A DNA stretch of 9,628 nucleotides from Promethearchaeota archaeon. GTDB lineage: Archaea; Asgardarchaeota; Lokiarchaeia; Sigynarchaeales; SOKP01. Below, piece after piece: positions 32 to 9,125 of this stretch (its first letter is position 1; every line of letters begins with the position of its first letter). Both the position numbers and the translations under genes were made by a program. The stretch spans positions 1 to 9,628 of the forward strand of contig JAEOTW010000321.1 in assembly GCA_016839655.1 (NCBI GenBank), read 5' to 3'. The notes under the pieces are model-generated. The model was not told the DNA's origin. It ran no database searches and worked only from the letters and a program-made list of their open reading frames with translations.

Positions 32-616
32 CTATTTAGTTTTTGAACCACAATATTGACAAAATTTTAACTCTAAAGGATAATGTTTCCCACAATTGGG
101 ACATTTCTTTAAAGATTTTTTAAGAATTTCACGTCCTAGCATCTCAAAAGCTTTTTCGACATTCTCACCTGTTTTAGCAGAAGTACTTAAAATTTCTCCT
201 TGAAATTTATGTTTTTCAAATATTTGGAGCACATCTTCTTTTTTAACCTTCCTTTTTAAATCTGATTTTGCTTCAATTAAAATTTTAGTTTTAGGAGAAT
301 TAGGAACGGATGAGATGACATTTATCCAATCATAAAGGTCATTTAGAGAATCTTCGTTTGTAACATCATATAACATTAAGGCACCTGAAGCTCCAGATAC
401 ATAAGAAGGAAAGAGTAATCGAAATTTTTTTTCTCCTGCAAAATCCCAAATATTCAGCAATATTTCAGTCTCATCAACTAATACTTTTTTAGTTTCAAAA
501 TCAACACCAATCGTAGATAGTGTTGATTTCTCGAACTTTCCTGTAGCATATCGACGAATCAAACTTGTTTTTCCAACATTTTTAGCTCCAGCAACAACGA
601 CTTTAAATTTTATCAT
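32..616 (-). CDS. Ras/Rab-like small GTPase with C-terminal zinc ribbon
   Basis: A 194-residue P-loop GTPase of the Ras/Rab type followed by a zinc ribbon. Visible motifs: G1 P-loop GAKNVGKTS (residues 10-18), switch I Thr35 in STIGVDF, G3 WDFAGEKK (Asp58-Gly61), G4 AKSD (116-119) and G5 TSAKTG (145-150). Two departures stand out. The position of the Ras catalytic Gln61 is Glu62, and the first residue of the G4 box is Ala instead of Asn, which may change hydrolysis or guanine affinity. The tail has Cys172, Cys175, Cys186 and Cys189 in a CxxC-x10-CxxCG arrangement and no CaaX or CC prenylation end, so membrane attachment, if any, must be indirect. It starts with ATG and has no clear Shine-Dalgarno. 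It lies downstream of hef on the same strand, with a 134-bp gap holding its own likely TATA box. Its closest relative in the window is the GTPase at 6165-6773 (roughly 45% identical by eye). Family assignment is secure; the cellular role is unknown. Confidence 0.93.
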   Translation of the reverse strand: MIKFKVVVAGAKNVGKTSLIRRYATGKFEKSTLSTIGVDFETKKVLVDETEILLNIWDFAGEKKFRLLFPSYVSGASGALMLYDVTNEDSLNDLYDWINVISSVPNSPKTKILIEAKSDLKRKVKKEDVLQIFEKHKFQGEILSTSAKTGENVEKAFEMLGREILKKSLKKCPNCGKHYPLELKFCQYCGSKTK

Positions 617-750: not shown

Positions 751-3096
751 TTATCTGTCATTTTTATACTTATAACGGCTTAGTTTATAGATTTCTTGAG
801 CAATTTTTTTTCCTATCTTATCGATTTTTGTTAAATCAGGAATATCTGCTAAGAAAATATTTTGAAGCGTCTTTAATTCTTTCAATAAGTTTTTTGCCCG
901 AAGAGTGTTTACACCTGGGATCCCTGCAATAATATATTCTAATAGATCTGATGGTTCAATAGGAGCTTTGTCAAATCTTAATTTCGGTGAAGAAGCTGTG
1001 ATTGATTGTTCTTTCCTTGCTAATTGATAAAGAAACTGAGCTGTTTCACTAACATTTTCAGTTTTGTAGATTGAAATTCCTAAATTAAGAATTATTGATG
1101 TAATCGCACCGTAGAGTGCATTTTCACTAATATTTGAATCAAGAAATGGATCTCCTTCTAATATTAAAATAGGTCGTAAAAATTTTTCACCAAGTTCACT
1201 CAATTCAGTAAATAACCTTCCATCGATGAGAGAATCATTAAAATCTTTAGCAGATTTCCTCTCAATTCCTACCCTTTCGGATATAACATAATCTGCTACT
1301 AATAACTGCTCTAACTTAATTTTAACTCCCATCAAAGAAAGTGTTCTTACTACTGGAGATGCAGTTTCACGATTATCGCAAATAATTTCAAAGTTATGAG
1401 CATCTTCAATTTTCTTAATTGAACTTTGATCTGGTGCTTTCTTTTCTTTCGATTCCTTCTTTTCATTATTCTCTGAAGAAATATAATTGAAAAGATTAGA
1501 TTGCCCAGACTTAGTCATAGATTCTGAACTTTTAATTTTATCTAAACTTACTTGCATACTTTTCTCTTTAGATCTTTCTGCCCAATAATAACCCTCATCT
1601 CTGGTACCTTCTGCCATTAAGACAAAAACTTTCCCTTCCTTTTTTCTGCCTGTACGTCCACGTCGTTGAATAGAGCGAATAGCACTAGGAACCACATCAT
1701 AAAATACTACTAAATCACATTCTTCAATATCTAAACCCTCTTCAGCAACACTTGTACCAACTAATGTATTATAAATTCCCTCTTTAAAATCACTAAGTAG
1801 ATTGATTTGCTCTTTTTGAGTTAATCCTTTATCAGATCCTCTGGTTGCTTGCCCGACAAACTTATGAATTTTAATTACCTCATCGTCTTCAAATATTTTT
1901 ACTATATTATTGACAGAATCTCTAAAGTGGCAAAAAACAAGTATTCTTGAATCGGAATTTGCTTTTATCTGATTAGTTAAAAGCTCTTTTAGCTTTTCTA
2001 TTTTTGGATGAACAACACCCTTGGAATAGAGTATACTGGTTAATGTCTTAGCATGTTTAAAATCAGTGTCATAAAAAAGCTCTTTTAACGATTTATTTGC
2101 AGTATTTTTCTTAATTTTCTCTTCATTCTTATCAAAATAATCCTTAAGAGCGCTTACACCTTGAGTTTCTATTAACTCCGTCATATGAGATAACCTTATT
2201 GCATTTGCTGCAACCTTTTTTGCGTTAAACATTCGAAACTTTTCATCATTATCCCTTGCTGTGGAAATTCTCCGATTAATTAGATTGTTCAATTTCAATA
2301 GATCTTTTCTGCTGATTTTATTAATATCGTAAGACACAAGTAATTCGTTTTCCTTTAACATTTTATAGCATACTTTTAGTTTATTTTCTAAGATTTCCTT
2401 TACTTCTAAAAGCTCACTTGGAAGTTTAATTTTTATCCATTCATTATCTACTTTATGAATATACGGTTTAACATCCAAGTCCTTTTCTGTTCTGATTTCA
2501 ATATGGTCGATAAATAAATTTTGTTTAATCTCATTAATCTTACTTTCAGTTGAGCCTGGACTTGCTGTTAAACCTAAAATTTGAGAATTCCTAGCAAGAT
2601 CCATATATTTTTTCGCTAAAAAACAATATGCATAGTCTCCAACTGCTCTATGACACTCATCAAAAATTATCAATGAGACATCTTTAATTGAGTATAACCC
2701 TGATATAAGGTCATTTTGGAGAACTTGAGGAGTCATAAAAGCAATTTTTATATCATTCCATAGTATCTGTCTTTTATCAGGAGAAATTGTCCCTGTAAGA
2801 GTTATAAGCGATTCTTCAGGAAGTTTAGTCAGCATTAAAAAAGATTTATAGTGTTGCTCCACTAAAGGTTTAGTGGGGGCTAAAAGAATTACTTTTGAAT
2901 CTTTAATTTCGGTTAATCTTTGTACAGCAAGCATTAAAGCTATAATTGTCTTACCTAAACCTGTAGGGATTACCACTAAGCAGTTTTTATTTAAACAATT
3001 AATAAAAATACTCTCTTGATATTCTCTTCGAGATATTAAATTTTGTTTAATAAGAGGATGAGAAATAAATCCTTCATTTGTAGTTACGAAAATCAC
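751..3096 (-). CDS. hef: Hef: archaeal FANCM/XPF-family helicase-nuclease
   Basis: A 781-residue protein with the full Hef architecture, which in characterised archaea acts on stalled replication forks and branched DNA. The N-terminal SF2 helicase shows PTGLGKT (Walker A, 44-50), DECH (146-149), TASPG (177-181) and QRRGRTGR (motif VI, 477-484), with a helical insertion at about 225-340. A charged linker follows (about 510-565). The ERCC4/XPF nuclease has Asp602, the ERK triad (612-614) and Asp618, so the active site looks intact. A tandem helix-hairpin-helix region ends the protein (about 717-775). The linker contains QSNLFNYI (532-539), which resembles an archaeal PCNA-binding PIP box. The start is GTG: the HPLI segment typical of Hef N-termini begins at residue 13, and the next Met (55) lies beyond Walker A, so a later start is excluded. 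Divergent from the tRNA. Length and domain order match functional archaeal Hef rather than the separate euryarchaeal XPF or Hel308 families. Confidence 0.96.
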   Translation of the reverse strand: MIFVTTNEGFISHPLIKQNLISRREYQESIFINCLNKNCLVVIPTGLGKTIIALMLAVQRLTEIKDSKVILLAPTKPLVEQHYKSFLMLTKLPEESLITLTGTISPDKRQILWNDIKIAFMTPQVLQNDLISGLYSIKDVSLIIFDECHRAVGDYAYCFLAKKYMDLARNSQILGLTASPGSTESKINEIKQNLFIDHIEIRTEKDLDVKPYIHKVDNEWIKIKLPSELLEVKEILENKLKVCYKMLKENELLVSYDINKISRKDLLKLNNLINRRISTARDNDEKFRMFNAKKVAANAIRLSHMTELIETQGVSALKDYFDKNEEKIKKNTANKSLKELFYDTDFKHAKTLTSILYSKGVVHPKIEKLKELLTNQIKANSDSRILVFCHFRDSVNNIVKIFEDDEVIKIHKFVGQATRGSDKGLTQKEQINLLSDFKEGIYNTLVGTSVAEEGLDIEECDLVVFYDVVPSAIRSIQRRGRTGRKKEGKVFVLMAEGTRDEGYYWAERSKEKSMQVSLDKIKSSESMTKSGQSNLFNYISSENNEKKESKEKKAPDQSSIKKIEDAHNFEIICDNRETASPVVRTLSLMGVKIKLEQLLVADYVISERVGIERKSAKDFNDSLIDGRLFTELSELGEKFLRPILILEGDPFLDSNISENALYGAITSIILNLGISIYKTENVSETAQFLYQLARKEQSITASSPKLRFDKAPIEPSDLLEYIIAGIPGVNTLRAKNLLKELKTLQNIFLADIPDLTKIDKIGKKIAQEIYKLSRYKYKNDR

Positions 3097-3286: not shown

Positions 3287-3390
3287 GCGCGGGTGGTCTA
3301 GTGGTATGACGACATATTTTTTGCCTACCGCATTAAAAACGTTAAACGCTCACACCGTGTAAATCGGGGGTTCAATTCCCCCCCTGCGCA
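3287..3390 (+). tRNA. tRNA-Val (CAC) with a non-canonical intron
   Basis: The acceptor stem GCGCGGG (3287-3293) pairs with CCTGCGC (3383-3389), followed by discriminator A at 3390. The D arm is GTC-TAGTGGTAT-GAC (3296-3310). The T arm is GGGGG-TTCAATT-CCCCC (3366-3382). Read straight through, no anticodon stem forms and the gene is about 30 nt too long. Removing 32 nt (3314-3345) joins GAC to ACG and gives stem ACACG pairing perfectly with CGTGT (3356-3360). This encloses the loop CTCACAC (3349-3355), with T33 and anticodon CAC at 3351-3353. The mature molecule is then 72 nt with a five-base variable loop (3361-3365). CCA is not encoded. The intron sits at 28/29 (or 29/30, because A3314 and A3346 are interchangeable), not at the usual archaeal 37/38. 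A tRNA-Gly(GCC) reading was considered and rejected. Lies 111 bp upstream of rpoK on the same strand. Confidence 0.88.
3314..3345 (+). other. 32-nt tRNA intron in the anticodon stem (position 28/29 or 29/30)
   Basis: Inferred from the tRNA fold. Placed at 28/29 it gives a partial bulge-helix-bulge. GACG (3308-3311) pairs with CGTT (3340-3343) over 4 bp, counting one G-U pair. This leaves three-base bulges at 3312-3314 and 3344-3346, the cut sites falling after the second base of each. The inner stem is a weak T-rich/A-rich pairing with one mismatch (3315-3319 against 3335-3339). No good outer helix is visible, so this would be a relaxed motif of the kind cut by broad-specificity archaeal splicing endonucleases. 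Confidence 0.75.
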
Positions 3391-3501: not shown

Positions 3502-3804
3502 ATGTCTAGTTTCTTAGAATCTCGAAATTTACGCAAGCAATATAAGAAAGTTAGAGAATATGTAAAGATTGGACCTATTTTTCTCACAAGATATGAAAAA
3601 GCTAGAATCGTTGGAGCGCGTGCATTACAAATATCCTTTGGAGCCCCTATCCTCGTGGAAAAGCCTATAAACATGATAGATCCGATTAAAATCGCCCAGT
3701 TAGAACTTAGGTCAAGAATCTTACCATTAACAATCAGGCGTGAATACCCCAGTGAAGAATATCAAGATATTCCAATTAACAAACTTATTCTGAAAAAGGA
3801 TTAA
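3502..3804 (+). CDS. rpoK: DNA-directed RNA polymerase subunit K (Rpb6/omega homologue)
   Basis: About 100 residues. RpoK is the archaeal counterpart of eukaryotic Rpb6 and bacterial omega, and it holds the largest polymerase subunit in place during assembly. The family signature is clear: LTRYEKARIVGARALQISFG, then GAPILVE, then DPIKIAQLEL, then the IRREYPSEEYQD segment near the C-terminus. The reading frame opens at a TTG at 3490, but ATG at 3502 (MSSFLESRNL) is the better start: only four residues are lost, it needs no rare start codon, and neither candidate has a Shine-Dalgarno. The length is normal for an archaeal RpoK with a short N-terminal extension. Downstream it converges on the membrane-protein gene with 28 bp between stop codons. 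Confidence 0.95.
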   Translation: MSSFLESRNLRKQYKKVREYVKIGPIFLTRYEKARIVGARALQISFGAPILVEKPINMIDPIKIAQLELRSRILPLTIRREYPSEEYQDIPINKLILKKD

Positions 3805-6164: not shown

Positions 6165-6773
6165 ATGCTAAAATACAAGATTTGTGTAGCAGGGGCAGAG
6201 GGTATCGGAAAATCCTCACTGATAACTAGGTATGTAGATGATACATTCAATGAGGATACAATGAAAACGATTGGAGTAGCTTTTAAAAGAAAGGAGATTA
6301 AGATAAAGGAAAAATTAAGCATTGAATTGAATATCTGGGATTTTGGAGGTGAAAAAAAGTATCGGCTTCTGTTTCCTGCTTATGTGAATGGTGCTGCAGC
6401 CGCCTTATTACTCTATGACACTACTGATAAGAATTCTTTAGATGATCTTGAAAATTGGGTTCAAATTATTGACGATAATTCTAAAGACGTCATCAAGATA
6501 ACAATTGGCACGAAAACAGATTTAAAGGACCAACGAGAAATTACTAAAGCTGATGCTGTTAAAATTAGTACTAAATTCAATTGTTATGGTGACTCTATTG
6601 GTACCTCATCAAAAACTGGTGAAAATGTCAAAAAAGCATTTCAAAATATAGTGGAAGCAATAATAGAACAGAAATTACATGAATGCAAAAGTTGTGGAGA
6701 ATACTTCTCTATAAAATTAAAATATTGCAATTTTTGTGGAGAAGAAAGTACAATTAATACCGCTACCGTATAA
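6165..6773 (+). CDS. Ras/Rab-like small GTPase with C-terminal zinc ribbon (second copy)
   Basis: 202 residues. G1 is GAEGIGKSS (10-18), switch I has Thr35 in KTIGVAF, G3 is WDFGGEKK (Asp59-Gly62), G4 is TKTD (116-119) and G5 is TSSKTG (147-152). As in the paralogue at 32-616, Glu (63) stands at the catalytic Gln position and the G4 Asn is replaced, here by Thr, a substitution tolerated in some other GTPase families. G5 is SSK instead of SAK. The zinc ribbon is Cys174, Cys177, Cys188 and Cys191, with the same CxxC-x10-CxxCG spacing, followed by a short polar tail without prenylation cysteines. The block GEKKYRLLFPAYVNGA after G3 is nearly shared with the other copy and is characteristic of this pair. 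Starts with ATG. Convergent with the hydrolase gene, with only five bases between the stop codons, so their transcripts must overlap. Effector and regulators unknown. Confidence 0.93.
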   Translation: MLKYKICVAGAEGIGKSSLITRYVDDTFNEDTMKTIGVAFKRKEIKIKEKLSIELNIWDFGGEKKYRLLFPAYVNGAAAALLLYDTTDKNSLDDLENWVQIIDDNSKDVIKITIGTKTDLKDQREITKADAVKISTKFNCYGDSIGTSSKTGENVKKAFQNIVEAIIEQKLHECKSCGEYFSIKLKYCNFCGEESTINTATV

Positions 6774-7682: not shown

Positions 7683-9125
7683 TTAGGGAAACTTTAATCT
7701 CTTATGGTATTGCTCTAGACTTTTTTGATCTAAGGGATTCTCATTCAAGAAAATGAAATTTAGATTTTTAAGTTCTTCAACACTTTCTCTTTGAAATTCA
7801 GAAATACGATTTCTTCCAAGGTGTAACATGATAATACTCTGTAATTTATCTAAATTCTCAACCTTCTTTATTTCATTATTGTCTAAATATAATTCTTGTA
7901 AATCTTTTAGATTCTGTAAACCTTCAATTTTTCCGATTTGATTATACGAGAGCTCTAATTTTTTTAAATTTGATAAATTCTCAAGTGATTCAATATTTTC
8001 AATATTATTATTTGAGAGATATAATCCCTTTAATTTCTCAAGAATCCTTAATCCTTCAATTTTTGAAATTTTATTACCATTGAGATATAACCACATTAAA
8101 TTTTTTAAATTTTGAAGACCTGTTATTCTCTCTATTTTATTAAAAGATAGATTTAATCTCTCTAACTCAATCAAACTATCAAGATTTTTTATTTCTTCAA
8201 TCTTATTACGTGTTAATTCTAGAGCTTTTAATTTACTTAAATTATTTAAATTTTCTATTCTACTTATTGAATTTTGATTTAATAATAATTTCTCTAAATT
8301 CCTTAATGAAGTAACACCCTCAATATTCTTGATTCTATTATTTGATAAATTTAATTCTTCTAACTGCTGTAACCCCTCTACATATTCAATTTTCTCCAAA
8401 TTATTATGAGATACATCTAAAGTTCGCAATTTTTTTAGAATTTGAACACCTTTCAGAGAAACAAGGTTATTTCGATGTAAATGAAGATGTTCTAATTCTT
8501 TCAGCAAATGTATTGATTTCACATCACCTATTTCTGTTAAATTAGAACTTTCACAATTCAAATAGCTAATTCTACCATTTTTCAAGCTGACATGGTAGCC
8601 ACATTTCTTTGTATAAAAATCATATAAAATAAGATTTATACAGATTTCTAGGTACATTTCTGGGATTGCTTCATTATAACTATAGTTAAATATTTCTTTT
8701 GGAAATTTTTTTATCTTTGACTCAAAATCTTTTTTAATTGATTCTTTTAAATAATCCACTAATAATTTTCGCGCCTTTAAGTTTTCTATTGAATTTAAGA
8801 TTCGAATAGCAAATATTTGTAATTCTACATTATCTATTCTATTTAATGTGTATTTTATTAAAGGTAATAGTTTCTTGTTATACAAATACTTCTCTTTTAA
8901 AATTCGCCCTGCGATTAATCTTAGCTTTATGTCCTCATCAGAAAGATATAAATGTTCGAAAAATTTGAAATTTTTTCCTTCATCAATTAACCCATAATTC
9001 AATAGAGCATTTTGACGTTGTTCTGGATCAGTTGAACTATCGATCCACTCCCTTAAGAGAGCTAATCCTTCTTTTTTTCCTATTTGGTCCAAATTTTCTT
9101 TAATATAATCTGGATGTAATTCCAT
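7683..9125 (-). CDS. SDS22-type leucine-rich-repeat protein with helical N-terminal domain
   Basis: 480 residues, no signal peptide or membrane segment, so probably cytosolic. Residues 1-170 are helical and resemble HEAT-like repeats (segments LLREWIDSSTDPEQRQNALL and LRLIAGRILKEKYL), a guess from pattern. A degenerate first LRR (about 185-209) precedes ten consecutive 22-residue repeats at 210-429 of the form xLxxLxLxxNxIxxIexLxxLx. An irregular eleventh follows (430-453), then a C-terminal cap ending at 480 (NLNFIFLNENPLDQ). The 22-residue period with 'NxIxxIE' is the SDS22 class, found in eukaryotic phosphatase regulators, LRR-containing ciliary proteins and many Asgard proteins. The array forms an open binding scaffold; its partner is unknown. 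Start: ATG with a GA-poor upstream and no Shine-Dalgarno, the likely TATA lying about 50 bp upstream. Upstream of the MBL hydrolase on the same strand. Confidence 0.92.
   Translation of the reverse strand: MELHPDYIKENLDQIGKKEGLALLREWIDSSTDPEQRQNALLNYGLIDEGKNFKFFEHLYLSDEDIKLRLIAGRILKEKYLYNKKLLPLIKYTLNRIDNVELQIFAIRILNSIENLKARKLLVDYLKESIKKDFESKIKKFPKEIFNYSYNEAIPEMYLEICINLILYDFYTKKCGYHVSLKNGRISYLNCESSNLTEIGDVKSIHLLKELEHLHLHRNNLVSLKGVQILKKLRTLDVSHNNLEKIEYVEGLQQLEELNLSNNRIKNIEGVTSLRNLEKLLLNQNSISRIENLNNLSKLKALELTRNKIEEIKNLDSLIELERLNLSFNKIERITGLQNLKNLMWLYLNGNKISKIEGLRILEKLKGLYLSNNNIENIESLENLSNLKKLELSYNQIGKIEGLQNLKDLQELYLDNNEIKKVENLDKLQSIIMLHLGRNRISEFQRESVEELKNLNFIFLNENPLDQKSLEQYHKRLKFP
7767..8498 (-). 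repeat. Tandem 66-bp coding repeats (eleven LRR units)
   Basis: The coding DNA for LRR units 1-11 runs in steps of 66 bp (72 bp for the last unit). Units share recurring short words such as the TTATT/AATTCT blocks seen on the plus strand. They are diverged at DNA level, so the array is old, and not a fresh amplification. Confidence 0.75.

Follow-up and report, generated by a model that had tools for sequence, protein, structure and literature searches.

The window, by which we mean the whole stretch of 9,628 nucleotides analysed here, contains a tRNA-Val(CAC) gene with an intron of 32 nt in its anticodon stem. This is very probably a working gene of a Lokiarchaeia archaeon, the intron of which lies at position 28/29, has a relaxed splice motif and would be cut by a presumably heterotetrameric EndA, expected in the host of the window as in its relatives, before the exons would be ligated. 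The evidence comprises the tRNA and its intron, the conservation of the motif, selection on the exons and the presence in relatives of two genes for EndA. The closest known relatives of eukaryotes are the Asgard archaea; in eukaryotes, tRNA introns occur almost only at position 37/38. The rise, spread and loss of tRNA introns is a general question, and this gene is a good natural record of these events: with one orthologous gene in largely conserved surroundings, compared in 45 genes, gain, loss and exchange become directly readable. Furthermore, an EndA pair with a crenarchaea-type loop links intron richness in Asgard archaea to a testable feature of the enzyme.

The tRNA model RF00005 matched the window with 47.6 bits and an E value of 7.1e-8 (cmscan), covering the whole model (positions 1-71). 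ARAGORN called no tRNA in the window. The gene is organized as follows:

3287-3390, + strand: complete tRNA-Val(CAC) gene (cmscan, RF00005)
3287-3313, + strand: 5' exon, tRNA positions 1-28 (RF00005 match, splice enumeration, relatives)
3314-3345, + strand: 32-nt intron at position 28/29 in the anticodon stem (splice enumeration, motif of the relatives)
3346-3390, + strand: 3' exon, tRNA positions 29-73 (RF00005 match, splice enumeration)
3351-3353, + strand: anticodon CAC (splice enumeration, the sequence itself)

We enumerated 18 placements of a single intron, spanning positions 26 to 44. All five pairs of the anticodon stem formed only with the intron after position 28, 29 or 30, and all five were of the Watson-Crick type only for the placements 28/29 and 29/30. 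For both of these, the spliced product has U33, the anticodon CAC, A37 and A73. Removal of the 32 nt yields a full cloverleaf tRNA with a 5-bp anticodon stem, as in archaeal introns spliced by EndA. The locus is confirmed as a tRNA-Val(CAC) gene with an anticodon-stem intron, and the statement of the preliminary description that a proper tRNA forms only upon removal of 32 nt at 3314-3345 was borne out by both the RF00005 match and the placement test.

EndA cuts after the second base of each bulge. The elements of the splice motif in the window are:

3308-3311, + strand: 5' strand of the central helix, 4 bp (GACG, tRNA positions 23-26, of which 23-25 also form the 3' strand of the D stem)
3312-3314, + strand: 5' bulge, predicted cut AC|A (motif of the relatives, EndA cut rule)
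3340-3343, + strand: 3' strand of the central helix, CGUU (fold, relatives)
3344-3346, + strand: 3' bulge, predicted cut AA|A (motif of the relatives)

Both the 4-bp helix joining 3308-3311 to 3340-3343 and the pair of 3-nt bulges, which had been drawn from the letters alone, are indeed present and are conserved in relatives. The minimum-energy fold of the precursor has -33.1 kcal/mol (z -1.92), a level reached by 7 of 200 shuffles; it contains the central helix, extended by a fifth pair. The outer helix had been described as poor, and in this fold it consists only of AGUG/CGCU across a 3-by-2 internal loop. The strict bulge-helix-bulge, with helices on both outer sides, is absent from the window intron. 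The motif is a relaxed bulge-helix-bulge of the HBh' type, following the naming in PMC6379350 and PMC4090602, and relaxed motifs belong to the wider bulge-helix-bulge family (PMC6379350). Because the central helix takes up the 3' strand of the D stem, splice motif and cloverleaf are locally mutually exclusive.

According to the mechanism that we propose, the 32-nt intron would interrupt the primary transcript at 28/29. The 3' end of the intron, CGUU, would pair with GACG at positions 23-26, which would place a 4-bp helix between AC|A and AA|A. A heterotetrameric EndA, composed of a catalytic alpha subunit with a crenarchaea-type loop and a structural beta subunit, would cut both bulges, and a ligase would join the exons, which would refold into the cloverleaf. 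The D stem would form only after the central helix had been given up. The weakness of the outer helix and the competition of the central helix with the D stem speak against this mechanism.

The tRNA gene has two immediate neighbours, the first of which served as synteny anchor and for the tree:

751-3096, - strand: Hef-like helicase/nuclease with DEAD, Helicase_C, ERCC4 and HHH domains (Pfam), divergent neighbour of the tRNA gene
3502-3804, + strand: rpoK/Rpb6-like gene downstream of the tRNA gene (PF01192, E 2.1e-7)

A search with Hef gave 60 loci, 56 of them labelled as Lokiarchaeia or Lokiarchaeota and four not so labelled (L054, L058, L059, L060). Best-segment identity between the Hef-like protein of the window and its counterparts in L001-L011, all labelled as Lokiarchaeia or Lokiarchaeota, was 80-89%, which places the host in Lokiarchaeia. 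The loci were scanned for the tRNA with a 5'-exon pattern allowing one substitution. It was present in 45 of the 56 Lokiarchaeia loci; in four of the 11 loci lacking it, the sequence upstream of Hef was shorter than 100 nt. Of the 45 tRNA genes, 43 lie upstream of Hef and divergent from it, at a distance of 136-1636 nt, and an rpoK-like ORF followed the tRNA in all nine relatives checked. In L026 and L047, a tRNA-Val(CAC) copy whose body has diverged (GTGCAAGTGG...) lies close to Hef on the opposite strand and contains a 44/45 intron.

The typed set consisted of 44 loci plus the window; L013 was left out, as its tRNA is cut by the contig end, and L003, L017, L018 and L023 were typed by hand. 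We designate the intron sites A (28/29), C (about 37/38, since 36/37, 37/38 and 38/39 give the same product), V (44/45) and T (58/59). The intron states of the 45 genes were:

None: 5
A: 10
C: 4
V: 3
T: 2
AV: 2
CT: 2
VT: 9
AVT: 7
ACT: 1

An intron was present in 40 of the 45 genes, at least two in 21 and three in eight, and 10 of the 16 possible site combinations occurred. Site A was occupied in 20 genes including that of the window, which shares the A-only state with nine close relatives. The five intronless orthologues (L018, L023, L024, L029, L037) have the anticodon CAC and closely similar exons. Intron lengths were nearly uniform at each site: 32 nt in 14 of 20 A introns and in 11 of 16 distinct V introns, 30 nt in 19 of 21 T introns and 19-22 nt in the seven C introns.

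In the motif test for site A, the four intron bases before the last two were compared with tRNA positions 23-26 in 20 distinct introns. A total of 77 out of 80 helix pairs was found, with RACG/CGUY between the bulges. Four pairs were formed in 17 introns and at least three in all 20, the three exceptions having one mismatch. The site A introns have the 4-bp helix with a 3-nt bulge at each splice site. None of 500 dinucleotide shuffles reached 77 pairs (best, 44), a control that overstates the evidence somewhat because the compared sequences are related, and ten other offsets gave at most 39. At site V, at least three pairs with positions 39-42 were found in 16 of 16 distinct introns (total, 54; best of 500 shuffles, 39), although the offset control was not clean, with 42 pairs at the best other offset, -7. 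Site T showed at least three pairs with positions 53-56 in 17 of 21 introns (total, 70; best of 500 shuffles, 46), again with an unclean offset control of 52 pairs at the best other offset, -5. The T introns of L002, L034, L038 and L057 had only one or two helix pairs, and the site may be shifted in these loci.

The motif and the relatives also bear on the exact site. The preliminary description had left a choice between 28/29 and 29/30. The latter would concern the same gene and intron, gives an identical product in the window, where both flanking bases are A, and is a published intron site (PMC4090602). However, in four of the 20 site A introns (L019, L038, L039, L057), the base following C28 is T. 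A29 can then stem only from the 3' exon, which gives 28/29; cutting at 29/30 would place T29 opposite U41, provided that these introns occupy the same site as that of the window. A 4-bp helix with 3-nt bulges, cut after the second base, likewise leads to 28/29. We therefore retain 28/29 and consider 29/30 improbable. A degenerate tRNA pseudogene that acquired an insertion by chance would be in accordance with the missing ARAGORN call and with the location of the insert in a stem. Against it stands a comparison of eight A-only genes (the window, L001, L004-L006, L008, L009 and L011; L003 and L010 were left out). Over the 28 pairs, the mean difference is 3.2% for the exons (maximum, 9.7%) and 26.1% for the introns (minimum, 12.5%), and the T stem shows a two-sided change, with G49-C65 in the window and A49-U65 in the other seven genes. 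As read from this divergence, the exons are shown to be under selection. Furthermore, 20 genes share the same insertion site, a nearly identical insert size and the same helix.

A pseudogene would also be easier to accept next to a second, intact tRNA-Val(CAC) gene, a finding that the preliminary description had named, together with a lack of expression from this locus, as speaking against its own reading. None was found in the relatives searched, as judged from two lines of evidence. The sequence CTCACACCGTG occurred once in 13 of 15 relatives' genomes and was absent from G002 and G007, whose gene has a 37/38-type intron there; an extra match to YTCACACCGTG in G005 lies outside any tRNA. For G001 and G010, 30 of the 44 tRNA-model hits were inspected, and among these the known locus was the only one with a CAC stem-loop in a tRNA, in a scan that would miss CAC genes otherwise interrupted in the anticodon arm, and 13 other look-alike stems in these hits lay, judged by eye, in non-tRNA sequence. 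The 5'-exon pattern was found in 48 of 83 genomes of the class, and once only in 46 of those. We rejected the pseudogene, which we regard as highly improbable, on the contrast between exon and intron divergence. Least probable of all, to the point of being negligible, is a tRNA-Lys(TTT) or other tRNA with a standard 37/38 intron and a coincidental CAC stem-loop. Removal at 37/38 does leave ACAUA/CGUGU and the anticodon UUU, but with an A-C mismatch in the stem and T37. Moreover, the five intronless orthologues with their closely similar exons read CAC, the TTTTTT stretch is not conserved in relatives, and three genomes (L100, L124, L140) have a Lys(TTT) gene of their own, the intron of which lies in the variable loop. 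The mismatch and the separate Lys(TTT) genes led us to reject this alternative, which leaves tRNA-Val(CAC) with a 28/29 intron as our reading.

The history of the introns was assessed by counting the fewest changes on one quick Hef tree of 45 rows with open branches, a count in which gain and loss are indistinguishable. We obtained 7 changes for A, 7 for C, 7 for V and 10 for T; 100 label shuffles gave means of 14.9 (A), 6.63 (C), 15.2 (V) and 15.1 (T) and minima of 10, 5, 10 and 10, respectively. As the values for A and V are below those of all shuffles, the value for T equals the lowest shuffle and that for C is not low, the A and V patterns are partly inherited, T is more weakly so, and C is scattered.

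Three loci showed changes in similarity along their sequence. L002 and L003 are 88-98% identical upstream of the tRNA (60-column windows), 67-74% identical for about 240 alignment columns from the tRNA start onward, and downstream 82-98% identical for about 1.1 kb and 68-98% beyond. The divergent tract in L002 (JAHQWL010000002.1) comprises 202 nt, ends at a conserved block before rpoK and contains C and T introns and different exons in place of the A intron. L017 and L023, compared together with L018, share 92-100% identity in 11 of 12 upstream windows. They diverge over a stretch of about 150 nt in L017, which begins some 20 nt ahead of the tRNA and extends some 35 nt past its end, with a C intron of the 37/38 type in L017 that is absent from L023; the L017 contig ends soon after the tract and provides little downstream flank for this comparison. 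L036 agrees with L039 from the anticodon region downstream, not upstream, and has the variable-loop intron of L039; its tRNA-Val is 803 nt from Hef. Its A intron is identical to that of L033 at 30 of 32 positions (94%) with Hef only 65% identical, the mean A-intron identity of 140 pairs with Hef below 75% being 0.65 (sd 0.06). We read the patterns in L002, L017 and L036 as probable swaps of short tRNA-gene stretches between lineages, with chimerism as the alternative in these metagenome assemblies. A wider generalization, which we put forward as tentative and rather doubtful, is that the tRNA intron set of Lokiarchaeia behaves as an exchangeable allele. Cassettes of about 150-200 nt, containing the tRNA and little flank, would be swapped by recombination, and introns at four fixed sites would come and go as sets, at times incompletely, at a much higher rate than changes in the adjacent genes, as permitted by a loop-bearing heteromeric EndA.

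The A-type intron is one of many in these genomes. Among 90 rows of Rfam tRNA matches from four genomes, 74 were full-length; 41 of the 74 were at least 95 nt long and 35 were 100-107 nt. These precursors of 100-107 nt form the commonest class, with introns of about 30 nt and near-constant size at several sites. In a survey of 60 loci from three genomes (L091-L150), a tRNA was parsed in 52. Variable-loop introns were found in Lys TTT, Thr CGT, Thr GGT and Arg CCT. Elsewhere, introns lay near position 26 in Pro TGG, at 28/29 or 29/30 in the Thr CGT gene of L141 and, as judged by eye, in the D arm. We searched 57 of these 60 loci, all but the three Val loci, for similarity to the Val introns of sites A, V and T. 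The part of the tRNA genes covered gave no sign of intron transposition between genes: the 15 best ungapped matches were 69-75% identical, and the mean of the bests was 0.656 compared to 0.642 for shuffled introns. With matches near the shuffled level, transposition between different tRNA genes was rejected for the part searched.

The preliminary description had expected an endonuclease that accepts relaxed substrates and had proposed to look for a heteromeric or epsilon-type EndA. In line with this expectation, the relatives encode two EndA proteins, a catalytic alpha with a crenarchaea-type loop and a beta devoid of the catalytic histidine. PF01974 detected these two kinds of protein in 17 relatives' genomes, with at least two matches in 14 of the 17; within the class, 82 of 83 genomes had a match and 68 at least two, and gaps in the draft genomes may explain the remaining ones. 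By eye, the EndA tyrosine, histidine and lysine are present in 14 of 14 extracted alpha proteins (L068 was left out), as is the segment F[FY]GSP[LI]GI[NSQH]KPR including the loop lysine. Beta has the histidine replaced in 15 of 15 proteins (by eye) and is without the loop segment of alpha. With phmmer, alpha aligned to residues 22-201 of 201 of the Aeropyrum pernix EndA chain 3p1z_B; the loop segment aligned without gaps, with the alpha lysine on residue 44, and this lysine is invariant in 30 of 30 aligned homologues. K44 is the conserved lysine of the Crenarchaea-specific loop (PMC6379350). Of the two EndA genes in the relatives, one is thus catalytic and the other is not, and by sequence alpha has the specific loop with its conserved lysine. 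The predicted structure of alpha, used for the fold only, had a mean pLDDT of 67.9 with less than 50 in the loop region, so that the loop geometry is not confirmed by it. Foldseek placed Sulfolobus tokodaii 2cv8 on top and chains of 3ajv and 3p1z at ranks 2-5. Efficient cutting of relaxed motifs is confined to (alpha-beta)2 and epsilon2 enzymes, and the (alpha-beta)2 enzyme of Methanopyrus, without such a loop, is constrained (PMC6379350). The EndA pair of the relatives appears fitting for a broad-specificity enzyme.

Alpha shares with the (alpha-beta)2 EndA of Aeropyrum pernix (3p1z/3ajv) an alignment that includes the loop and lysine 44; the Lokiarchaeia alpha-beta assembly is, in contrast, only presumed, and the alpha model is of modest confidence. 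Non-canonical archaeal introns are described at 29/30, 45/46, 59/60 and elsewhere (PMC4090602). Introns of Thermoproteales (Sugahara 2008 and Fujishima 2010, via PMC4090602 and PMC4033280) likewise occupy stem and loop sites, with up to three per gene, and are associated with relaxed bulge-helix-bulge motifs and a heteromeric EndA with a specific loop (PMC4090602, PMC4033280). Here, in contrast, the host is an Asgard archaeon, and one orthologous gene displays four sites, 10 combinations and near-constant intron lengths. Whereas transposition between tRNA genes is reported for Thermoproteales, no similar introns across genes were found here in the part searched.

The view that such intron positions occur mainly in Thermoproteota no longer holds, given the Lokiarchaeia host of the window and their occurrence in Atabeyarchaeia/Freyarchaeia (PMC11291895); of the earlier interpretation, the anticodon-stem intron and the expected relaxed endonuclease stand. 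In Atabeyarchaeia/Freyarchaeia, 92-95% of the tRNA genes have introns, which are often non-canonical, and over half have several (PMC11291895). Frequent non-canonical and multiple tRNA introns are consequently already known in Asgard archaea, in other classes; our analysis differs in its gene-by-gene history, the Lokiarchaeia tRNA introns and the EndA analysis. Intron gain and loss between close genomes at one locus, with recombination invoked, has been described for tRNA-Thr(GGU) of Caldiarchaeum (PMC3293823), where an insertion sequence of 1,868 bp is involved along with a fragment of a tRNA, in contrast to tracts of about 150-200 nt and an intact gene here. We recognised no literature dealing with tRNA introns of Lokiarchaeia or with an EndA of Asgard archaea that has this loop, in a search whose limited coverage of subscription papers makes this weak evidence of absence.

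Beyond the neighbours listed above, the window encodes two Ras-family small GTPases about 5.5 kb apart, at 32-616 (- strand) and 6165-6773 (+ strand). Both end in a pair of Cys-x2-Cys motifs, and the protein encoded at 32-616 has zinc-ribbon hits below the cut-off. A leucine-rich-repeat protein is encoded at 7683-9125 (- strand); its N-terminal part gave a HEAT-repeat hit below threshold.
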